Assembly (NCBI GenBank): GCA_902386535.1 | Contig: CABMJK010000058.1 | Location: 1 to 38,332, forward strand | Length of the DNA stretch: 38,332 nt | Source of the DNA: Candidatus Burarchaeum australiense | GTDB lineage: Archaea; Micrarchaeota; Micrarchaeia; Burarchaeales; Burarchaeaceae | Direction: 5' to 3' | In this document: positions 5,802 to 36,666 of the stretch, in pieces | Layout of the letters: every line of letters begins with the position of its first letter | Position numbering within the stretch: position 1 is the stretch's first letter | Made by a program: the position numbers and the translations under genes | Notes under the pieces: generated by a model | Told to the model about the DNA's origin: nothing | Database searches by the model: none | The model's input: the letters and a program-made list of their open reading frames with translations, nothing else

Positions 5802-8800
5802 CTAGCCTGCGCCCGAGGTGCTGCCCTGGACGGAACCCTCTCCGCCGGCGGTGCTGGACTGGCCGACACCGGGGGCGTTTGCAGACGGGTTGCGAGCATA
5901 AGCATACCACGAATCAGCATAGCGCTTGCCTTGCCCAGAAACCGATGAATTCCATGGGCCCATATTCAGGGCTGCATTCTCGAAAATTGCGCGGGCCCAG
6001 TCTCTTGTGGTTCGGTCCTCAAGCGGGATTGCCTGGTTGCCACTTGCATAGAGGCTGGCAAGGTCAACAAAAAGCTCCCCTGTCGGGTTGCGTATGAAAA
6101 CGCGCATACCAGGCTGGAGTTGCTGGTCTGAAGCATAGGCGGAATCCATGGCAGGGAAGAGCTGCTGCAGCTTTACTGCGTCGGCATCAGTGCCAGTCAT
6201 TATGTCAGCATACACGTGTATGCAGACAGTCAGCAGTTCATCCGCAGTTTTCACGGCCGCACCATCGAGTATCTGCTGAAGTATGCCCTGGTTCTCCGCA
6301 GCCGTAAGGAAGTTGCGGGTTTCAGTCAGATACGTATTCAAGTTCTGCCTGTAAGCATTCGGAACGCGGTCATACTCCGCCTGTTGGGCGGGATTCAGTT
6401 GAATTTGGCTAGGAACCGCGGAAACGAACGGTTCCGGAGGGCCGTTGACCAGAAAGTCCTCCAGTATCGCAGAGTATGTGGAGCCGTTTTGCGGGCCCCA
6501 ACCAAGGTCGAAAACTGCACGGCCCCAGTCCAAAGTCGTCCTGTTTTCGAACGGAATTATCTCGGGTGCGGTTGCATACGCTTTTCCAAGGTCGTTGAAT
6601 AGCTCTGCCGTCGGGTTGCGCATCAGCTGGCGAGGGCCGCCGGGCCGTTGATCGACTTCATATGCAGATGCAAGGGCCGGGAAGAGTTCCTTCAGCCTGC
6701 TTCCAGCTTCGTCATCGGCCGGCGCATCCATTATCTTGACGTAGATTTGAACATAGCGGGTGAAGAGTTCGTCCAAAGTAGCGACTCCGGCATCGGCAAG
6801 TTCCGTGTGCAGCTGCTGCTGGTTGAGAGTCAGCAGATGGCTTACGATTGCCGGGAAATATTCTCCGGTGAACCTCGCCTTGTCCTCTTGCGACATCGTG
6901 CTGCTGTTGAGGATTGCTTGCTGATCTGTGGTTAGTGCGGTCGGCACAGTAAGCTTCTGCATGGCAGCGACGCCGGGGCCTTCGGGCGTGGACTGACCTG
7001 GTTGCACGATTTCTGGTGCATTGCGATAGGTCGCGTATACGCCGCCTCCAACACCAAGGACACTCAGGGCCCATGAAAGAGTCAGCAGCACGCTGCCCAC
7101 ATAATTCGAGCGTATGTTTTCGCGTTGATTATAGGTTAAGTCGGGATCCGCCATTGCAGTCCTATACTCATCCGTTGCTGTACGCAGAAAGTCAGGCAAA
7201 GATCTCCCGGTTATTTCTTGGAATTGATCCAGAATGGCAGTCAATATTGCAGATTCATCGTTTGTACTACGATCGATGAAGCGTTGAAGTATATCTCGAA
7301 TTAACTGGAAATCAACATTTCTGACATCCCCGTTTGCAAGTCGCGTGGCCTGTTCCACGAGCAACCCGGCATCAAGTCGCGCTTGCTCTAGTTGGTCGTC
7401 GCTGGGAACGGCATCAGTTTTGGGTGCGCGGCTCCAGGCATCAAAAAGGTCGCCGATGCCAGTCAGATCTGCTCCAAGATTAGCTATTTCTACGTCGTCT
7501 AGGGGAGGATATGTTGAAATTCCGAGGGAGTCTGCATCTCGGACGGCCGCAGACAAACCGGATGCTCGCCAGGCTGCAACGCCGGATCTTAAGCTCAGAT
7601 CAACGGTTTCTTCTCGGCCTTGAATCACGTATGTTAGCCTCAGATGTCCATCTCTGACGTCCCTGGAAACCGTTCCAACCGCTTCCACTACGCCGCTACC
7701 CGACTCCCATTGCACACGAACGCGATCCGTAGTAGTGCCGGGCGCCATATTATTCAAATCAAAACTCTCCGTATACGTTTGTGCAGGAGTTGGACTGACC
7801 CGATCCCACCAGCCATAAACACCGCGAATGCTAAAGGCCGTGGAAGGATCAATAACTGCTGAAGTTTCGAGCGGGCGGGGCGTTAATAAGAGACCGGCAA
7901 GGAACTCCTGTGAGCGAGTGCGTGCCCTGGTGGTTGGGGGATTCCGCATTTCGGCGTCAAAGGCGTAAAGCCATCCAGCATTCCTTCCTCCGCCGGCCGG
8001 CCGTGTCCAAGACGCCCAGAGGCGAGTAAGGCCCCAGTTAGTAAGGTCAGTAGTCAGAGCAAATGTGCCCCATCCAAGAAGCGGATTGCCGGTGGAGGCA
8101 GTTACAGCAGTACCGGCAATGACGCCAGCAGTTCCGCCAAGAAGCCGGGTAGGCCAGTTGGCATCCTTCCACCAAACGGAACCGACGTGTGTCGCAGCTT
8201 CTCTCAGCATCGCCGTAGGATCTGCCCACATGCTCAGCGGCACCACCACGGCGCGCCCATCGCTATTGAGCTTCACAATTCCAAAGCGCCGCGTTCCGTC
8301 GTTAGAATCCACGACAACGACACTGCCCAAAACCAACGGGTTCTCAGGACTGAACCCGTTCCTGATTTCGTCGCCAGACCAAAACAGGCCCTCGTTATAC
8401 TTATAGGATAGCGGCAGCTTGTAACTCACCCCGGGTTGTATGATGTCCGCGGATTCTATTTGAGCTACGTTAAATGTGCCGCCGTTTGCACCACGCACAA
8501 CGAGCGAAAAGGTGCCGTCGGCTTCCAGGATTGTCCTCTCCACGAAGCCATAAGCAACCCTGGTGAAAGTGCCCGGAGCGTCTGTTGGCGCGCGCAGGTA
8601 AAGAATGACGGTTTTTCCTGACACCTGATCAGAGCTAACTGCATCGCGGTGTTCAGCAGGTGCGGCAAAAAGAACGGATTGTATCTCGCCCAGTCTCACT
8701 GTGCGCGTTGTTCCCTGCGGCGTGTCTATGAAAAGGGTTGTGAGTTCTGGATTGCCCGCAGGACCGAGCGAAATATTGCGTACGGTACCCCTAACGATAC

Positions 8801-11800
8801 TGGTATCATTTAGCTGCAGGAAAATCGTGTAGAACTGACCTTGTGGCAAGCGCTGAGCGGAAATATCCGTGATGATGTTGTTGATCTGCTCGCGAGGCAT
8901 CTGTTGAATGAGCGCCTGGTCGGCAGCACGCAGGGGCGCCTGAAGGTATGGGAGTGTGGTGTCTGCCCGAATATCGACATCTATGGTTCTTGGAGCTGGC
9001 TCGCCCAGCAAGTAACCAGTAAGCCTTACGGTGTTGGAGCCTGCTTGATATTGAGCACCGGTAATCAGGAGTTGCCGGGCCCGATACTCCGCGGGCACGG
9101 AATCTGGAAGACGCACTATCAAACCGCCAATCCCTTCAGGAGCATATTGAAGCGCCATTGGAGGTGCGGGCGTGTCACTTACATAAATATTGCGATTTGT
9201 CCTGTCTGTTGCCGCGTTTGCGCGGGGCAGTCGGTATACTTCCAGAAGATTTCCGTCAGCATCGCGGTATGCATAGCGGTTCCCGACCGCAGGTCCATCT
9301 TGAACTACGGTAGCGTGCCGAGTTTCTCCATTCACACTATAGGTCAGGTCCACATAGTTCCCCTGAGTCGTGGAGGCTCCGTTGGGACCAAAAGTAACTT
9401 GAGGAGTGTTTGCTGCGAAGAGACTGTCTGGCAGATCCCCCAGAACTTCTATCCGCGTGCCGAGCGGATTCACGTTCATGTTCTGACCGCCCGAATACAC
9501 TCGGAGGGTTTGGCCGTCGGAGCCTAACGAAAGGCCGATGTGCGGGCCGTTTTCATCATAAAACAGCACTAACTGACCTTCTGTGCCTGCATAAGTTCTC
9601 GCGTCATAGGTCTGCAGAGTGTCGCTTGCGCGATAGTAGCTGTTTCGGAGCTCCCGGAAAGTGCATGGCACGACTTCCTGAATAGCGAATATATCGACAA
9701 GCGGAATTCCATTTGTCTGCCCCTCTAAGAAAACGCAAAGGGTTCCGTCCACACTCTCCCCAATAGTCCTTACAGTTCCCCGTACTAAATCAAAGGTGCC
9801 GGTAGTGCCACGTGGCGTGAAAATGTAAACTTCTCTGCCAACTAGAGAAGCCTGTGCCTGCTCATCGGTGGTTAAATCACCAGTTGTTCCAATGCGCAAA
9901 TAATTGACGATTCCCGGCTCAGATTGGAAGACGCGGGACATCGCGTCGCTTGAAAGCCACTGGCGGTTCACAAGTCGCGAGGTCGGGTCTCGCACGCTAT
10001 TGAAACTCAGGTTGAAATATCCCCACAAGTTTATTTTTATCCCACTAAACCTTCCACCAGGTAGGCTCTCATACAGCCATAACAGGGTGTCGTCGGTAAC
10101 TCCCGGTAAAATTGTGCTATAGAGCTTATCAGAAGAACTGGAAGGCGACGGAGTGTAAACATCCCCTATGTTAAGCCCGCCCATATCCGCAGGCAGGGTT
10201 GGTCGGGATGCACTTGGCGATTGACGGGCGGCATCCTCGGCCGCAGCTACGTAAGCCGGAAACTCATCGGGATAGGAGCGTATTCCACCTTGCACCAGAG
10301 GAGATGTTGGACTCAGACCGGTAAGCAACTCATTTTTCACAGGCGCATCGGAATCGTAAATCACCAGGAGAGGCCTATCACGCACGCCGTAAATCACGAA
10401 GGCCCTCACGGAGCGGCCTTCAATCGTAAGACTAATCTCTGTGGAGTTTGAACTCGCCAGCCGGTCCTCAAAAGCCGCCTGATCCGAATAGATGGTAAGT
10501 TCATAATATTCCCCGCGCGCATGAGTAACGCCTTCGGATGGTTCCTGGCCCAGGTTGAAGATGGGGTTTTCGCCAGCGGTCGGTTCTGGCACCACGGCTG
10601 CGGCGGAATTCGGGAAGAATTCCTGCAGGAACTCTGAGGAACGTGCCTGCCGAGCACCCGAGGCGGCGATTTCTTCGTATGCAGCAGTACCGGCCACGAC
10701 CCACTTGCCATTCACGAGCGCCAGTTGTATCCAATCGCCTTGGTCGGCGCTCGACTTGACATATCTTATGTTCTCGGAACCTGCGGGGTCATCGGCAACC
10801 AGCAAAATCTGCCCCGAATTGACCAAATCAATTAGCTGGACTGCGGTCGCTCTAAGAAGCTCCGTGGAACGCCAATAGGGGAAGTATTCGGCGAGCGAGA
10901 TTTGTGCTGGGTTACTTACATCGACGCCCGCTGCTTGGAGCTCGGCCGCCGTGGCAAGGCCAGTTACAGACCAGCGTCCATTGCGATATTCTGCTACGAC
11001 CCATAGGTCGCCGCCCTCTGCAGGCCGCATATAAAGCGTGCGCGGTTCCCGTCCTGATGCGGGAACCTCAACGCCGGTGATAGGTCCACCGGCCGTATCC
11101 CAGTCCTGCAAAAGCAGTGCACTGGCATTAGACTTCATTACAGGAAGATAATCAGTCGCGAGGGTCGTAGAACTAAGGGGTTGCCGGGCTGCGGAAGATG
11201 GAAGCGCTTCGGGAGACATTGTACCAGCGATGCGCCATCCCCCGTCACCTATGCGTTCCAGTATAATCCAGGCATCAGGCCCAGCAGTTGGCCGGAATGC
11301 AACCCGCACGGGTTGTCCTTCCTCAACAGGAAGTTCTACTAGTTCATAATCCTTAACACCCGCGCCAAACCAGTTGAGCACACTCATGGCCCCTGCGGAG
11401 ACGCTGGCAGCAGGGAAGTATTGGCGGACAAAATCTGAAGAGGGCAAAGTAGTCGACGTGCTGCCATTCCAGGGGCTGTCGGCTGCTTCGCGGCCGGTGG
11501 GGCGCCAGCTGCCTCGCGGGCCGATCGGATTTTCTTCCATAACGATCCAGGGAACCGTTGAACCGACAGGCCTGACCCGAATGCGAGCAGGAAGCCCTGC
11601 TTGGGAAGGCATTTGCTGGATCTCAAACTCCGAAACGCGGTCTGCAAACCATCCGCCAAAGAGCCTGTTGGCCTCGCCGTTTTCGAACTGGGTACGGCGG
11701 CTTTCTGCACCCGATAGGCTTATGTGAGTTATGATTGCGGCATTCATGACGAAATCCCCGGCCACCATGCTAATCGAATCAGAGATTTGATTGGCCCGCG

Positions 11801-14800
11801 CATAGTCTCCGGAATTTATTGCATCCGCATATTGGGAACCCAGATCGAGCATCTGGACGCCATCCAATATCAGCTGCCCTCCGAGTTGGTAAGTGAATGT
11901 CTGTCCAACAACCGCCTGGGCAGGATTAAGTATGTTGCCCACGGATGCGAATGAACGAGAGCGCGTGAGGCCCTCCAATTCAGAGAACTCGGGAAGAAGC
12001 TGATATACGTCTGAAGCTGCGCCAAGCCCGAACATCGCAGTGCCAAGAAGGGCGCCAAATGTCTCCATACTGATGACATTCCCGTCTCGGACCAGATGGT
12101 CAAGTTCTTCCGCATTGCTCAGGAATAGCGAAACGTTGCCTGCCAAACGGACTGTTTGCAAGGTGGTTTTGATTGTATTGAGCGTGCTGATTGTGCTCAA
12201 TGCTTCCGCGGTGCCTTCGGCAGCCAAAGCAGCTATTCTGGCCGTAAGAGCCCCGATGCCGAGTGGCGTGAGCATGATGGCGCTGAGTGCAATGAAATTC
12301 TGTAACTGCGAGTCTGCCGCGTCATTGTATGAAACTGCTAGTTGCCTATCGAGAGCACCGAGCTGTGAGCTAAGCACAACGAAGTTATCACGACTGGGAG
12401 CTCTGCAATAGTTGCCCAAGGCACGGAGGGCGGAGCTTGCTTCGGCGACAGTAGGATGTGCGCCAGCGGTCGGGAAAAGGCCTTCCATGAGTTCAGACCA
12501 TGCCGAATCGATGGTCAAAGAATATCCGGAAATGTTGAATTGATTTCGGGCGCTTCCATTAATGAGTCCTTGGCGGACATCGTAAATGTTTACTCCAAAC
12601 TCTTGCAAGGAAGCCTGCAGCTGGTAGCGTTCTGATTGCGAGAAAGACTGCACAGATCCGGGATTTTTGATTGCAAGGACCGCACTAATGCCAAGCTCAG
12701 GTATAAGCAGCATCCAGTCTACAAAAGTGTGACGCGGCGTTTCCAACACAGTAGGGCCTAAAGTTGAAGTGAGTTGCTCTTTAGAGCCGTAGATATAGTC
12801 GAGCTGCATGAGCGCGCGCAGGTCTCTGCTGCAAGCACCCACAGAAGGGCTGAGTGCCCTGCTTATTTCAGACTCCGACCGGTCGCCGCTCAAAAGTGCT
12901 CTTCTGACGGCAGCGCGCACGTCCGGAGTGTCGAAATTATTCAAGGACGCAATTCTACTTATGTTCGTAAGGTGGGAGTAACGGTCTTCATTCGAAAGTG
13001 TGGTTCCCTCATTGACGATGGCGCCCGTATCGTACATCGGGGCAGTAAGTTCGAGTTCGGCCTTGAACAGGTTTGCATAGCCATACTTTTGCATCTTCAC
13101 CACAATGCTCGCACAGGCATCCAGCATGAGATTTACGTCGCCCGAGGCGCGCGCAGCATCAAGTTCTCTGATTAGTTCGGTGGCTTGAGCCTGTGTCAGC
13201 CCCATCACCATCGAACCGGCAGCCAACTGGTCGCGAATAGAACCCGGAGCAACTTCCGTTATGGCATTTATGTTGTGCTTGAAAGAATCAATCATTTCAA
13301 TTACATGTCCCGTGTCCTCTGCCACCTGTGTTTTGACTTCTTCGACTTTGCCATTAAAGCCGCTCCAAAGTCCGGCCAGGGTTTGCTCTTGCTGACCCAG
13401 CCTTACAAAAAGCGGGTTCGTGGCGGCGGCAAGGGAATACTGCTCCGCACCCGATGCATCGATTTGCACGAAGCTGCTGGCGAACTCGGCTTGCGTAGTG
13501 TTGGCTATTGTCTGCAGAGACCTCAAAACATCGTCTAGGCCTCCTGGAATTCCGAAATTTGCATCTCGGGACAAGTTCTTGAGCAGCCGGGCGCCATAAT
13601 AATCCTGACAGGCACCGAGTATGAACTTTGAATACAGGAGCTGACCGCTTACTTCGCTCAGGATTGCACTGCCCGCATAGACGTCGCCATTCGAAATCTC
13701 ATCTACGGCCTGGTTAAGCCGATCTCGCACGTTAGCCAATATGGTTCCCAGAGAGGCAAAAGGGAGATCCCCTTGCCAGCCACCGGGTATGTTGGTGGTG
13801 AGACGTTGCAAAGTATTGAGTCCGGTTTCCAGATCTCGTCTCAGCGAATAGGCACCTATCAGCAGCCCGAAATCAGTGAACCTTCTGTTGGTTTCGTAAG
13901 CAAGGGCGAGCTCCTGCGCGGCAAGCGTTTTGTTGCCATGATTGACGGAGTTTAAGGCCTCCTCATAGTGATGTTTTGTCTGGTCCATCAGGTCAAGCAT
14001 CGAATCCCTGAAACTAGCATCAAGGAAGGTTTTGTTCAGAACCGTCTGAGAAAGTGTGCCGTCCCGTAGTTTTGTTTGTATTTCAGACTCAGCGACACCA
14101 AAGGCCAGTAGAGCGCTCTTCGTGGAATCTGAGAGGGGCTGCCGTCCAGCTACTTCATCCCAAAAGGAGCGCGTGAACTGCGGATACTGAACCTGAAAAG
14201 TTCGAATGTCTTCAAGGCCGGCCAATGCTTCATTTTCAAGCTGAGGTTCGGAGAGCTTGCTTGGATCCAAATAGGTGAAGTCAGGCCGCATCAGGGATAA
14301 AGACGTGGCACTCGTACCGGTAGAAAAAGGATCTTGAGATGGAGGCGGAAGCAAGGACGCTGCAGTGAGAGGTTGCCTATACACTATTTCGGTAGTAGGC
14401 GCCTGGGTGCCGCTTTCGGTTGACCCCGGCCCTTCTTCAGGCATTTCAAGCATCTGATGGTGCGGAACGCCCACGCGCGGAAGGTCATGACGCATCATCT
14501 GGGCAGCTCCATCGCCCACGCTAATCTGCGCAATCATCTCGTTGTCGAACTGCACCGTGGCGCCATCACTCTCTACTCGGGAAATCAATATTGCCGAGGG
14601 GTCTTTGCCGAGCCAGGAGGCGACGGCCTGCAGGAGCGCATCATAATAGGTGCTGCCGGACGAGAGCATTTCCGAGCTCATTGCGGTTCCGGTTACACGC
14701 AGATTGTTCCCCCGGCCACGGTAGCTGTAGAGCTTCACCGAGTCTCCGACAACCGCGAAGAATTTGTTATCGCCCAATGTGAAAATTTGTTGTGCAGTAA

Positions 14801-14870
14801 CGGGCTGATGTTCAAGAGCACTTACCCTGGCAGCTAGCTGGTCCTCGATGTTGACTTGCTGCTGGGCCAT
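5802..14870 (-). CDS. Giant 3022-aa multidomain protein, unknown function
   Basis: Single uninterrupted ORF of 9069 bp, ATG start with upstream TATA-like TTTTAAAG; contains several degenerate internal repeats and hydrophobic segments (e.g. YVGSVLLTLSWALSVLGVGGGVYATY). Confidence 0.93.
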   Translation of the reverse strand: MAQQQVNIEDQLAARVSALEHQPVTAQQIFTLGDNKFFAVVGDSVKLYSYRGRGNNLRVTGTAMSSEMLSSGSTYYDALLQAVASWLGKDPSAILISRVESDGATVQFDNEMIAQISVGDGAAQMMRHDLPRVGVPHHQMLEMPEEGPGSTESGTQAPTTEIVYRQPLTAASLLPPPSQDPFSTGTSATSLSLMRPDFTYLDPSKLSEPQLENEALAGLEDIRTFQVQYPQFTRSFWDEVAGRQPLSDSTKSALLAFGVAESEIQTKLRDGTLSQTVLNKTFLDASFRDSMLDLMDQTKHHYEEALNSVNHGNKTLAAQELALAYETNRRFTDFGLLIGAYSLRRDLETGLNTLQRLTTNIPGGWQGDLPFASLGTILANVRDRLNQAVDEISNGDVYAGSAILSEVSGQLLYSKFILGACQDYYGARLLKNLSRDANFGIPGGLDDVLRSLQTIANTTQAEFASSFVQIDASGAEQYSLAAATNPLFVRLGQQEQTLAGLWSGFNGKVEEVKTQVAEDTGHVIEMIDSFKHNINAITEVAPGSIRDQLAAGSMVMGLTQAQATELIRELDAARASGDVNLMLDACASIVVKMQKYGYANLFKAELELTAPMYDTGAIVNEGTTLSNEDRYSHLTNISRIASLNNFDTPDVRAAVRRALLSGDRSESEISRALSPSVGACSRDLRALMQLDYIYGSKEQLTSTLGPTVLETPRHTFVDWMLLIPELGISAVLAIKNPGSVQSFSQSERYQLQASLQEFGVNIYDVRQGLINGSARNQFNISGYSLTIDSAWSELMEGLFPTAGAHPTVAEASSALRALGNYCRAPSRDNFVVLSSQLGALDRQLAVSYNDAADSQLQNFIALSAIMLTPLGIGALTARIAALAAEGTAEALSTISTLNTIKTTLQTVRLAGNVSLFLSNAEELDHLVRDGNVISMETFGALLGTAMFGLGAASDVYQLLPEFSELEGLTRSRSFASVGNILNPAQAVVGQTFTYQLGGQLILDGVQMLDLGSQYADAINSGDYARANQISDSISMVAGDFVMNAAIITHISLSGAESRRTQFENGEANRLFGGWFADRVSEFEIQQMPSQAGLPARIRVRPVGSTVPWIVMEENPIGPRGSWRPTGREAADSPWNGSTSTTLPSSDFVRQYFPAASVSAGAMSVLNWFGAGVKDYELVELPVEEGQPVRVAFRPTAGPDAWIILERIGDGGWRIAGTMSPEALPSSAARQPLSSTTLATDYLPVMKSNASALLLQDWDTAGGPITGVEVPASGREPRTLYMRPAEGGDLWVVAEYRNGRWSVTGLATAAELQAAGVDVSNPAQISLAEYFPYWRSTELLRATAVQLIDLVNSGQILLVADDPAGSENIRYVKSSADQGDWIQLALVNGKWVVAGTAAYEEIAASGARQARSSEFLQEFFPNSAAAVVPEPTAGENPIFNLGQEPSEGVTHARGEYYELTIYSDQAAFEDRLASSNSTEISLTIEGRSVRAFVIYGVRDRPLLVIYDSDAPVKNELLTGLSPTSPLVQGGIRSYPDEFPAYVAAAEDAARQSPSASRPTLPADMGGLNIGDVYTPSPSSSSDKLYSTILPGVTDDTLLWLYESLPGGRFSGIKINLWGYFNLSFNSVRDPTSRLVNRQWLSSDAMSRVFQSEPGIVNYLRIGTTGDLTTDEQAQASLVGREVYIFTPRGTTGTFDLVRGTVRTIGESVDGTLCVFLEGQTNGIPLVDIFAIQEVVPCTFRELRNSYYRASDTLQTYDARTYAGTEGQLVLFYDENGPHIGLSLGSDGQTLRVYSGGQNMNVNPLGTRIEVLGDLPDSLFAANTPQVTFGPNGASTTQGNYVDLTYSVNGETRHATVVQDGPAVGNRYAYRDADGNLLEVYRLPRANAATDRTNRNIYVSDTPAPPMALQYAPEGIGGLIVRLPDSVPAEYRARQLLITGAQYQAGSNTVRLTGYLLGEPAPRTIDVDIRADTTLPYLQAPLRAADQALIQQMPREQINNIITDISAQRLPQGQFYTIFLQLNDTSIVRGTVRNISLGPAGNPELTTLFIDTPQGTTRTVRLGEIQSVLFAAPAEHRDAVSSDQVSGKTVILYLRAPTDAPGTFTRVAYGFVERTILEADGTFSLVVRGANGGTFNVAQIESADIIQPGVSYKLPLSYKYNEGLFWSGDEIRNGFSPENPLVLGSVVVVDSNDGTRRFGIVKLNSDGRAVVVPLSMWADPTAMLREAATHVGSVWWKDANWPTRLLGGTAGVIAGTAVTASTGNPLLGWGTFALTTDLTNWGLTRLWASWTRPAGGGRNAGWLYAFDAEMRNPPTTRARTRSQEFLAGLLLTPRPLETSAVIDPSTAFSIRGVYGWWDRVSPTPAQTYTESFDLNNMAPGTTTDRVRVQWESGSGVVEAVGTVSRDVRDGHLRLTYVIQGREETVDLSLRSGVAAWRASGLSAAVRDADSLGISTYPPLDDVEIANLGADLTGIGDLFDAWSRAPKTDAVPSDDQLEQARLDAGLLVEQATRLANGDVRNVDFQLIRDILQRFIDRSTNDESAILTAILDQFQEITGRSLPDFLRTATDEYRTAMADPDLTYNQRENIRSNYVGSVLLTLSWALSVLGVGGGVYATYRNAPEIVQPGQSTPEGPGVAAMQKLTVPTALTTDQQAILNSSTMSQEDKARFTGEYFPAIVSHLLTLNQQQLHTELADAGVATLDELFTRYVQIYVKIMDAPADDEAGSRLKELFPALASAYEVDQRPGGPRQLMRNPTAELFNDLGKAYATAPEIIPFENRTTLDWGRAVFDLGWGPQNGSTYSAILEDFLVNGPPEPFVSAVPSQIQLNPAQQAEYDRVPNAYRQNLNTYLTETRNFLTAAENQGILQQILDGAAVKTADELLTVCIHVYADIMTGTDADAVKLQQLFPAMDSAYASDQQLQPGMRVFIRNPTGELFVDLASLYASGNQAIPLEDRTTRDWARAIFENAALNMGPWNSSVSGQGKRYADSWYAYARNPSANAPGVGQSSTAGGEGSVQGSTSGAG
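5805..6935 (-). repeat. Two-copy ~180-200-aa repeat at the C-terminus of the giant protein
   Basis: Copy 1 ...LDELFTRYVQIYVKIMDAPADDEAGSRLKELFPALASAYEVDQ...RNPTAELFNDLGKAYATAPEIIPFENRTTLDWGRAVF; copy 2 ...ADELLTVCIHVYADIMTGTDADAVKLQQLFPAMDSAYASDQ...RNPTGELFVDLASLYASGNQAIPLEDRTTRDWARAIF. Confidence 0.85.
10580..11680 (-). repeat. Four degenerate ~90-aa tandem repeats in the giant protein (approximate limits)
   Basis: Aligned cores: PWIVMEENPIGPRGSWRPTG / DAWIILERIGDGGWRIAGTMSPEAL / DLWVVAEYRNGRWSVTGLATAAEL / DWIQLALVNGKWVVAGTAAYEEI, each followed by a (S/A)xx(F/L)xxx(Y/F)(F/L)P segment. Confidence 0.75.
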
Positions 14871-36378: not shown

Positions 36379-36511
36379 TGCGGGGGGCAGGATTTCCAAT
36401 TCTTTTCCGCAGGCGCTTTTCTTTCTAAGAAAAGGGCCTTTTTGGACCTGCGTAGGCGCTAAGCCAGCGGATCTTAAGTCCGCCCCATTTTCCGGGCTCT
36501 GGCACCCCCGC
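36379..36511 (-). tRNA. tRNA-Leu(UAA), intron-containing
   Basis: Acceptor GCGGGGG/CCCCCGC (7 bp), D-arm CCA/TGG, anticodon arm GCGGA-CTTAAGA-TCCGC (anticodon TAA), type II variable arm TGGCTTAGCGCCTAC, T-stem GCAGG/CCTGC; spliced length 85 nt ending in discriminator A, no encoded CCA. Confidence 0.88.
36393..36440 (-). other. 48-nt BHB-type intron in the tRNA-Leu T-loop (position 59/60)
   Basis: GCAGG-TCCA-AAA...TGGA-AAT-CCTGC forms a bulge-helix-bulge: 4-bp central helix TCCA/TGGA, 3-nt bulges AAA and AAT; intron hairpin CTTTTCTT-AGA-AAGAAAAG. Confidence 0.82.
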
Positions 36512-36666
36512 ATCAGGAACCTACGGTTTCCGATACCTTCCCTTCTAACTTGCCTACGGTTCTTATTATCTCCCTTAACGGTGCGGCGGCTAATATTCCT
36601 TTGGGTTTCTGGTGGGGGTTTTTAAGGTTCGCAGGCCATATACTACTCTATTCCTTGGGCGAGTTT

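Follow-up and report, generated by a model that had tools for sequence, protein, structure and literature searches.

Noncanonical bulge-helix-bulge (BHB) introns of archaeal tRNA genes, those at position 59/60 included, have been reviewed (PMC4090602, PMC4033280), and the mechanism by which archaeal tRNA introns are mobilised has been stated to be unknown (PMC4090602). For the splicing endonuclease of ARMAN-2, the catalytic residues and the essential Tyr-Lys pair of the ARMAN-specific loop have been defined (PMC12397907), while the genome of Candidatus Burarchaeum australiense, a metagenome-assembled genome (MAG) of 1.20 Mbp with 5.4% redundancy, was reported with only 18 tRNAs (PMC8561730). 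The locus described here lies on the minus strand of a stretch of 38,332 nucleotides, referred to as the window, and is best explained jointly as a functional and apparently the only tRNA-Leu(UAA) gene of its genome, carrying a copied intron that EndA would excise and whose three strands Y1, R2 and R3 most likely form a triple helix; we give this combined reading a probability of roughly 0.7.

A tRNA-Leu(UAA) gene interrupted in its T-loop

The features of the gene, all on the minus strand, are as follows.

36379-36511, minus: whole tRNA-Leu(UAA) gene, type II, read directly from the sequence
36512-36576, minus: 5′ leader with the repeated unit AAGGGAG...ACCGTAGG, the last copy abutting the 5′ end of the tRNA
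36441-36511, minus: 5′ exon, 71 nt (positions 1-71 of the spliced query match at 100%)
36505-36511, minus: acceptor strand GCGGGGG of the 5′ exon
36474-36476, minus: anticodon TAA
36443-36446, minus: exon strand TCCA of the BHB central helix (T-loop positions 54-57; position 55 is C, usually T)
36393-36440, minus: 48-nt BHB intron at 59/60, from the sequence, the fold and its absence in a congener
36395-36398, minus: intron strand TGGA of the BHB central helix (the Ser(GCU) copy has TGAA, which pairs with its exon TTCA)
36379-36392, minus: 3′ exon, 14 nt, comprising T60, the 3′ strand of the T-stem, the 3′ strand of the acceptor and the discriminator A

When the exons are joined they make an 85-nt type II tRNA-Leu with anticodon UAA, the interruption falling after TCCAAA of the T-loop, and the BHB consists of the outer helix GCAGG/CCTGC, the 4-bp central helix TCCA/TGGA and the 3-nt bulges AAA and AAT, inside which the predicted cuts fall. 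Folding of the pre-tRNA with ViennaRNA reproduced the T-stem, the central helix, both bulges and the intron hairpin at a predicted energy of -55.2 kcal/mol (z -2.5; 4 of 200 shuffles were equally good), and every stem of the tRNA was intact in this fold. The original prediction had placed gene, junction and BHB on the minus strand, and re-extraction of the sequence together with folding returned each of them base for base; it had also expected that a standard tRNA search could miss the gene, as indeed ARAGORN reported no tRNA in the window, Rfam gave no match there at threshold, and a search of the whole genome with RF00005 returned 22 places, none of which was the tRNA-Leu(UAA) at 36379-36511. 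The region also scored weakly against the Rfam family ATPC, at 18.2 bits where the cut-off is 45, and this was dismissed as chance. Split tRNA genes that escape ARAGORN and Rfam may account for missing tRNAs, such as those of the Burarchaeum MAG with its 18 (PMC8561730).

A search of 60 related genomes with the spliced 85-nt tRNA established that a congener (G001) has a tRNA-Leu(UAA) 98% identical over all 85 positions, differing at 2 of the 85 nucleotides, in which the 48-nt insert is absent and the exons are contiguous at the exact junction proposed, so that the claim that removal of 36393-36440 restores a complete tRNA is borne out by an uninterrupted gene. The same spliced query found no second tRNA-Leu(UAA) in the window's own genome (G000), where the sole other place matched was a 17-nt fragment; such a second copy had been named beforehand as the thing to look for, and this genome is a draft, 91% complete with 5.4% contamination, in a gap of which one could sit. 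The uninterrupted congener copy and the failure to find a second Leu(UAA) together indicate a real gene and not a pseudogene. That the locus is a tRNA pseudogene is accordingly very improbable: its C at position 55 in place of T and its being missed by standard tRNA finders would suit a decayed gene, but every stem is intact, the BHB pairing is kept, the intact gene of the congener has C55 as well and the draft yielded no second Leu(UAA), and with neither an intact second copy nor broken stems the pseudogene was rejected. Position 55 (window 36445) is C in G000, in G001 and in a more distant genome without the intron (G013), and T in nearly all other relatives listed. Congener empty site, predicted fold and host endonuclease support a tRNA-Leu(UAA) gene with a BHB intron at 59/60, and the precursor is probably spliced in the cell.

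One splicing endonuclease was found in G000, a protein of 386 aa with two tRNA_int_endo stretches in one frame, which aligns end to end (residues 5-386 of 386, E 4e-138) with the ARMAN-2 enzyme of PDB 4fz2; in that alignment the catalytic Tyr/His/Lys are conserved, as is the Tyr-Lys pair of the ARMAN-specific loop (FRLY, HSKH, HSVKK, GSYK). The type of endonuclease, a question raised by the original prediction, is on this alignment epsilon2 (ARMAN-type), a single chain homologous to the three-unit ARMAN-2 enzyme. The protein shares 92% identity with its counterpart in 'Candidatus Burarchaeum sp.', which by this likeness makes the host Burarchaeum or something very near it, within Micrarchaeota; the 59/60 BHB intron of the original prediction stands, its host not belonging to Thermoproteales, the group in which such introns had been said mainly to occur. 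Epsilon2 endonucleases accept relaxed, noncanonical motifs, and the host EndA would excise the 48-nt intron at its BHB.

Several further observations concern the tRNA genes of these genomes. Many tRNAs of G000, G001 and G002, the last a genome of the same family, share a leader in which AAGGGAG or AAAGGAGG precedes a hairpin, around ACCGTAGGT or ACCTTGGT, the arm of which varies and which ends at the 5′ end of the tRNA, sometimes in tandem units (three loci). The leader element also occurs within introns of some Thr tRNAs, immediately ahead of the 3′ half (four loci), and at a few non-tRNA places (three loci). In the three closest genomes, position 8 of tRNA-Ser(GCU) is A, whereas T is nearly universal there. 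Elsewhere in the window an open frame of 3022 aa (5802-14870, minus strand) has no Pfam match.

Copies of the intron and turnover at two tRNA sites

The 59/60 introns of Leu(UAA) and Ser(GCU) in G000 are identical at 46 of 48 positions, the first 41 nt being the same, and both differences fall in the exon-pairing end, where the Leu intron has TGGA facing TCCA and the Ser intron TGAA facing TTCA. The Ser intron of G002 is likewise identical at 46 of 48 positions to that of G000, while its Leu intron matches the Leu intron of G000 at just 41 of 50. In G001 there is no intron at the Leu site, and the one at Ser(GCU) 59/60 is unrelated. As judged from these comparisons, the Leu intron is a member of a family copied between tRNA genes, and the Leu and Ser sites are found occupied, empty, replaced and filled by related introns across three close genomes. 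Direction and mechanism are less firmly drawn: the tRNA-Ser(GCU) intron would be either the source or the recipient of the copied core. The intron strand of the central helix matches the local exon. Spread of the intron by viruses was considered and rejected, a scan of viral contigs having given 11 pattern matches, none of them apparently in a tRNA gene.

A different history, compatible with the main explanation and bearing on the past of the site only, has about an even chance: the Leu intron may be no new insertion but a long-established one, its core replaced through gene conversion from Ser(GCU), with the strand TGGA as a remnant of the older Leu intron, and G001 would then have lost its intron precisely. 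The Leu(UAA) intron of G002, at the same site, ends in ATGGAAA where that of G000 has TTGGAAA, as a shared old intron would lead one to expect, and C55, present in G000 and in the intron-less gene of G001, pairs perfectly with an intron G and may be the scar of a lost intron in G001. The intron-less G013 has C55 too, so that no scar is required, and a new insertion followed by a compensatory A-to-G change fits the same data, which come from three genomes only. Whichever history applies, the same two tRNA sites in four states over three close genomes make gain, conversion and loss datable and testable.

Two other kinds of element were seen in introns of these genomes. In a second intron class (seven loci) a conserved strand, AACCCC, comes after a hairpin AGGGGGC...GCCCCCTT; here too three strands may be arranged together, and it is this class that occupies the Ser(GCU) 59/60 site of G001. 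Repeated hairpins CACCATTCCG...CGGAATGCGTG lie inside introns and adjoining tRNAs (five loci).

A mirror-related purine strand in the intron family

The core of the Leu intron is made up of four consecutive elements, again on the minus strand.

36427-36434, minus: Y1, pyrimidine arm CTTTTCTT of the intron hairpin (from the fold; pattern match with 0 expected)
36416-36423, minus: R2, purine arm AAGAAAAG, the Watson-Crick partner of Y1 in the fold
36408-36415, minus: R2-R3 linker CGCCTGCG, a CG-NNNN-CG turn as in the family
36400-36407, minus: R3, purine strand GAAAAGAA, the predicted third strand, an exact mirror of R2

R3 is R2 read backwards, and is thus a mirror and neither a complement nor a direct repeat. 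The original prediction had described 12 unpaired nucleotides between the intron hairpin and the central helix as a relaxation of the motif; they are no relaxed filler, being a conserved element that consists mostly of R3. Within the linker CGCCTGCG, GCCT can alternatively pair with AGGC below a C-C mismatch.

A search of the three genomes for the hairpin alone, with the tail left unconstrained, returned 46 hairpins, every one of which reads as a tRNA intron in which the pyrimidine arm precedes the purine arm on the tRNA sense strand, that strand being called by an automatic, tail-blind tRNA criterion for most and by eye for the remainder. A mirror run of at least 7 nt lies within 45 nt downstream of 44 of these hairpins, against 1 of 46 on the opposite strand; in the other two no mirror strand is nearby, and some R3 strands carry a mismatch. 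Among 44 asymmetric arms the mirror was longer than the direct repeat in 36 and equal in 8, and the direct repeat, which would correspond to antiparallel pairing of R3 with Y1, was never the longer and was rejected; long asymmetric examples are AGAAAAGAAA/AAAGAAAAGA, AAAGAAAGAAG/GAAGAAAGAAA and AAGAAAAGAGA/AGAGAAAAGAA. When arms and tails were re-paired at random over 20 distinct arm types, none of 20000 permutations matched as well, a test at the level of arm types which lessens, without removing, the dependence among intron copies, many of which are related by copying. On these comparisons R2 and R3 covary as mirrors. That R3 is a mere A-rich stretch is disfavoured by the arm swaps between introns and by the positions outside the pattern.

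Of 301 genomes in the phylum, 38 contain the fixed full Y1-R2-R3 pattern; its reversed-order control gave 1 match. Flanking purines outside the fixed letters are mirror-identical at 131 of 166 positions, as compared to 58.5 expected and a maximum of 84 on shuffling, and R2 and R3 are in most members separated by a palindromic turn of few bases, for instance CG-NNNN-CG or CC-NNNN-GG. When 20 motif stretches in other families were inspected, many proved to be tRNA introns and some lie 3′ of tRNAs or of a protein gene, and in three further families most hairpins chosen tail-blind show the mirror; in one large family none of the genomes listed has a pattern match. The motif outside introns was seen at nine loci and on four viral contigs, the places being 3′ of tRNA genes, 3′ of an apparent thermosome gene, and on viral contigs with no assigned host, the four viral matches resembling true mirror motifs; here it is possibly an RNA 3′-end or terminator element. 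No description of the Y1-R2-R3 module was found in the literature searched on tRNA-intron triple helices or on Micrarchaeota tRNA introns. Ordinary covariance models treat pairs only, and the module is for this reason invisible to them.

A putative RNA triple helix and its relation to known systems

The best, if unproven, reading of this covariation is a purine-purine-pyrimidine RNA triple helix, and the role ascribed to the helix below is to be read in the same way. The third purine strand runs antiparallel to the purine arm and carries its mirror sequence, as is expected of such a helix. The predicted arrangement would be one in which Y1 (CTTTTCTT) pairs with R2 (AAGAAAAG), the chain makes a short turn, and R3 (GAAAAGAA), the mirror of R2, returns alongside it, antiparallel to R2 and parallel to Y1, so that the A and G residues of R3 would contact the A-U and G-C pairs by way of the purine edge of R2. 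The intron would in this manner become a compact, self-folding module within the tRNA loop, leaving the fold of the tRNA undisturbed and holding the exon ends in position for EndA.

Homopurine mirror repeats are also the classic signature of H-DNA, and it may be asked whether the mirror acts in DNA, the R2/R3 repeat promoting copying and the RNA forming no triple helix. The purine mirror repeats fit that signature and the introns are clearly mobile, but H-DNA has no need of the Y1 arm, and the order Y1-R2-R3 lies always on the sense strand of the tRNA with the reversed order almost absent, although the hairpin search itself had required Y1. An orientation tied to transcription and the provision of a partner for R2 point to an effect in RNA rather than to H-DNA, which we consider improbable. 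RNA strands generally support purine-motif triplexes poorly, and R3 could for this reason occupy the minor groove instead or serve as a protein-binding strand. A-rich minor-groove strands are frequent in RNA, which together with the position of R3 after the 3′ strand of the hairpin, the topology of loop 3 in a pseudoknot, lends some credit to R3 as an A-rich, pseudoknot-like minor-groove strand or a protein site, the mirror then arising from A-richness and copying. The G positions nevertheless track the mirror of their own arm better than that of swapped arms (0/20000; 131/166 vs 58.5), and we regard this alternative as unlikely, though not negligible. An ENE/MALAT1-type helix, in which a U-rich loop clamps an A-rich tract, was rejected, as the intron has just one pyrimidine strand.

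The triple helix remains our preferred reading of the intron, and the wider proposal that Micrarchaeota use a natural, sequence-specific RNA purine-purine-pyrimidine triple helix as a portable module, in some families as the core of mobile tRNA introns and in others 3′ of tRNA and protein genes, is one to which we give slightly less than even odds. We know of no earlier widespread natural RNA fold of this type, and the module, if the reading is true, would be the first widespread natural purine-purine-pyrimidine RNA triple helix, a new type of natural RNA fold discovered through sequence comparison alone; it would also account for the spread of the introns into tRNA loops without spoiling the folding of the tRNA.

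The Leu intron shares with the known noncanonical BHB introns of archaea its motif, its class of position and the restoration of the tRNA on removal, and differs from them in its Burarchaeum-like Micrarchaeota host and in the presence of the Y1-R2-R3 mirror module. Families of transposed tRNA introns are known elsewhere, in which several tRNA genes of a genome carry almost the same intron, as is the case here; those families belong to a different phylum, whereas the present sites are variously occupied, empty or replaced among members of one genus and family, and, unlike in the known cases, the exon-pairing strand of the present copies varies to fit its target. The host endonuclease is a full-length homologue of the ARMAN-2 epsilon2 enzyme (PDB 4fz2, 9w2k; PMC12397907) and keeps its catalytic and loop residues, the ARMAN-2 enzyme having been studied experimentally (PMC12397907) and that of the host being known here from its sequence. 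The triple helices of ENE and MALAT1 are made of U.A-U triples with two U-rich strands. Like them the mirror module has its third strand after a hairpin, and some of the Micrarchaeota motifs lie 3′ of genes, a similar location; it differs in being composed of two purine strands and one pyrimidine strand.
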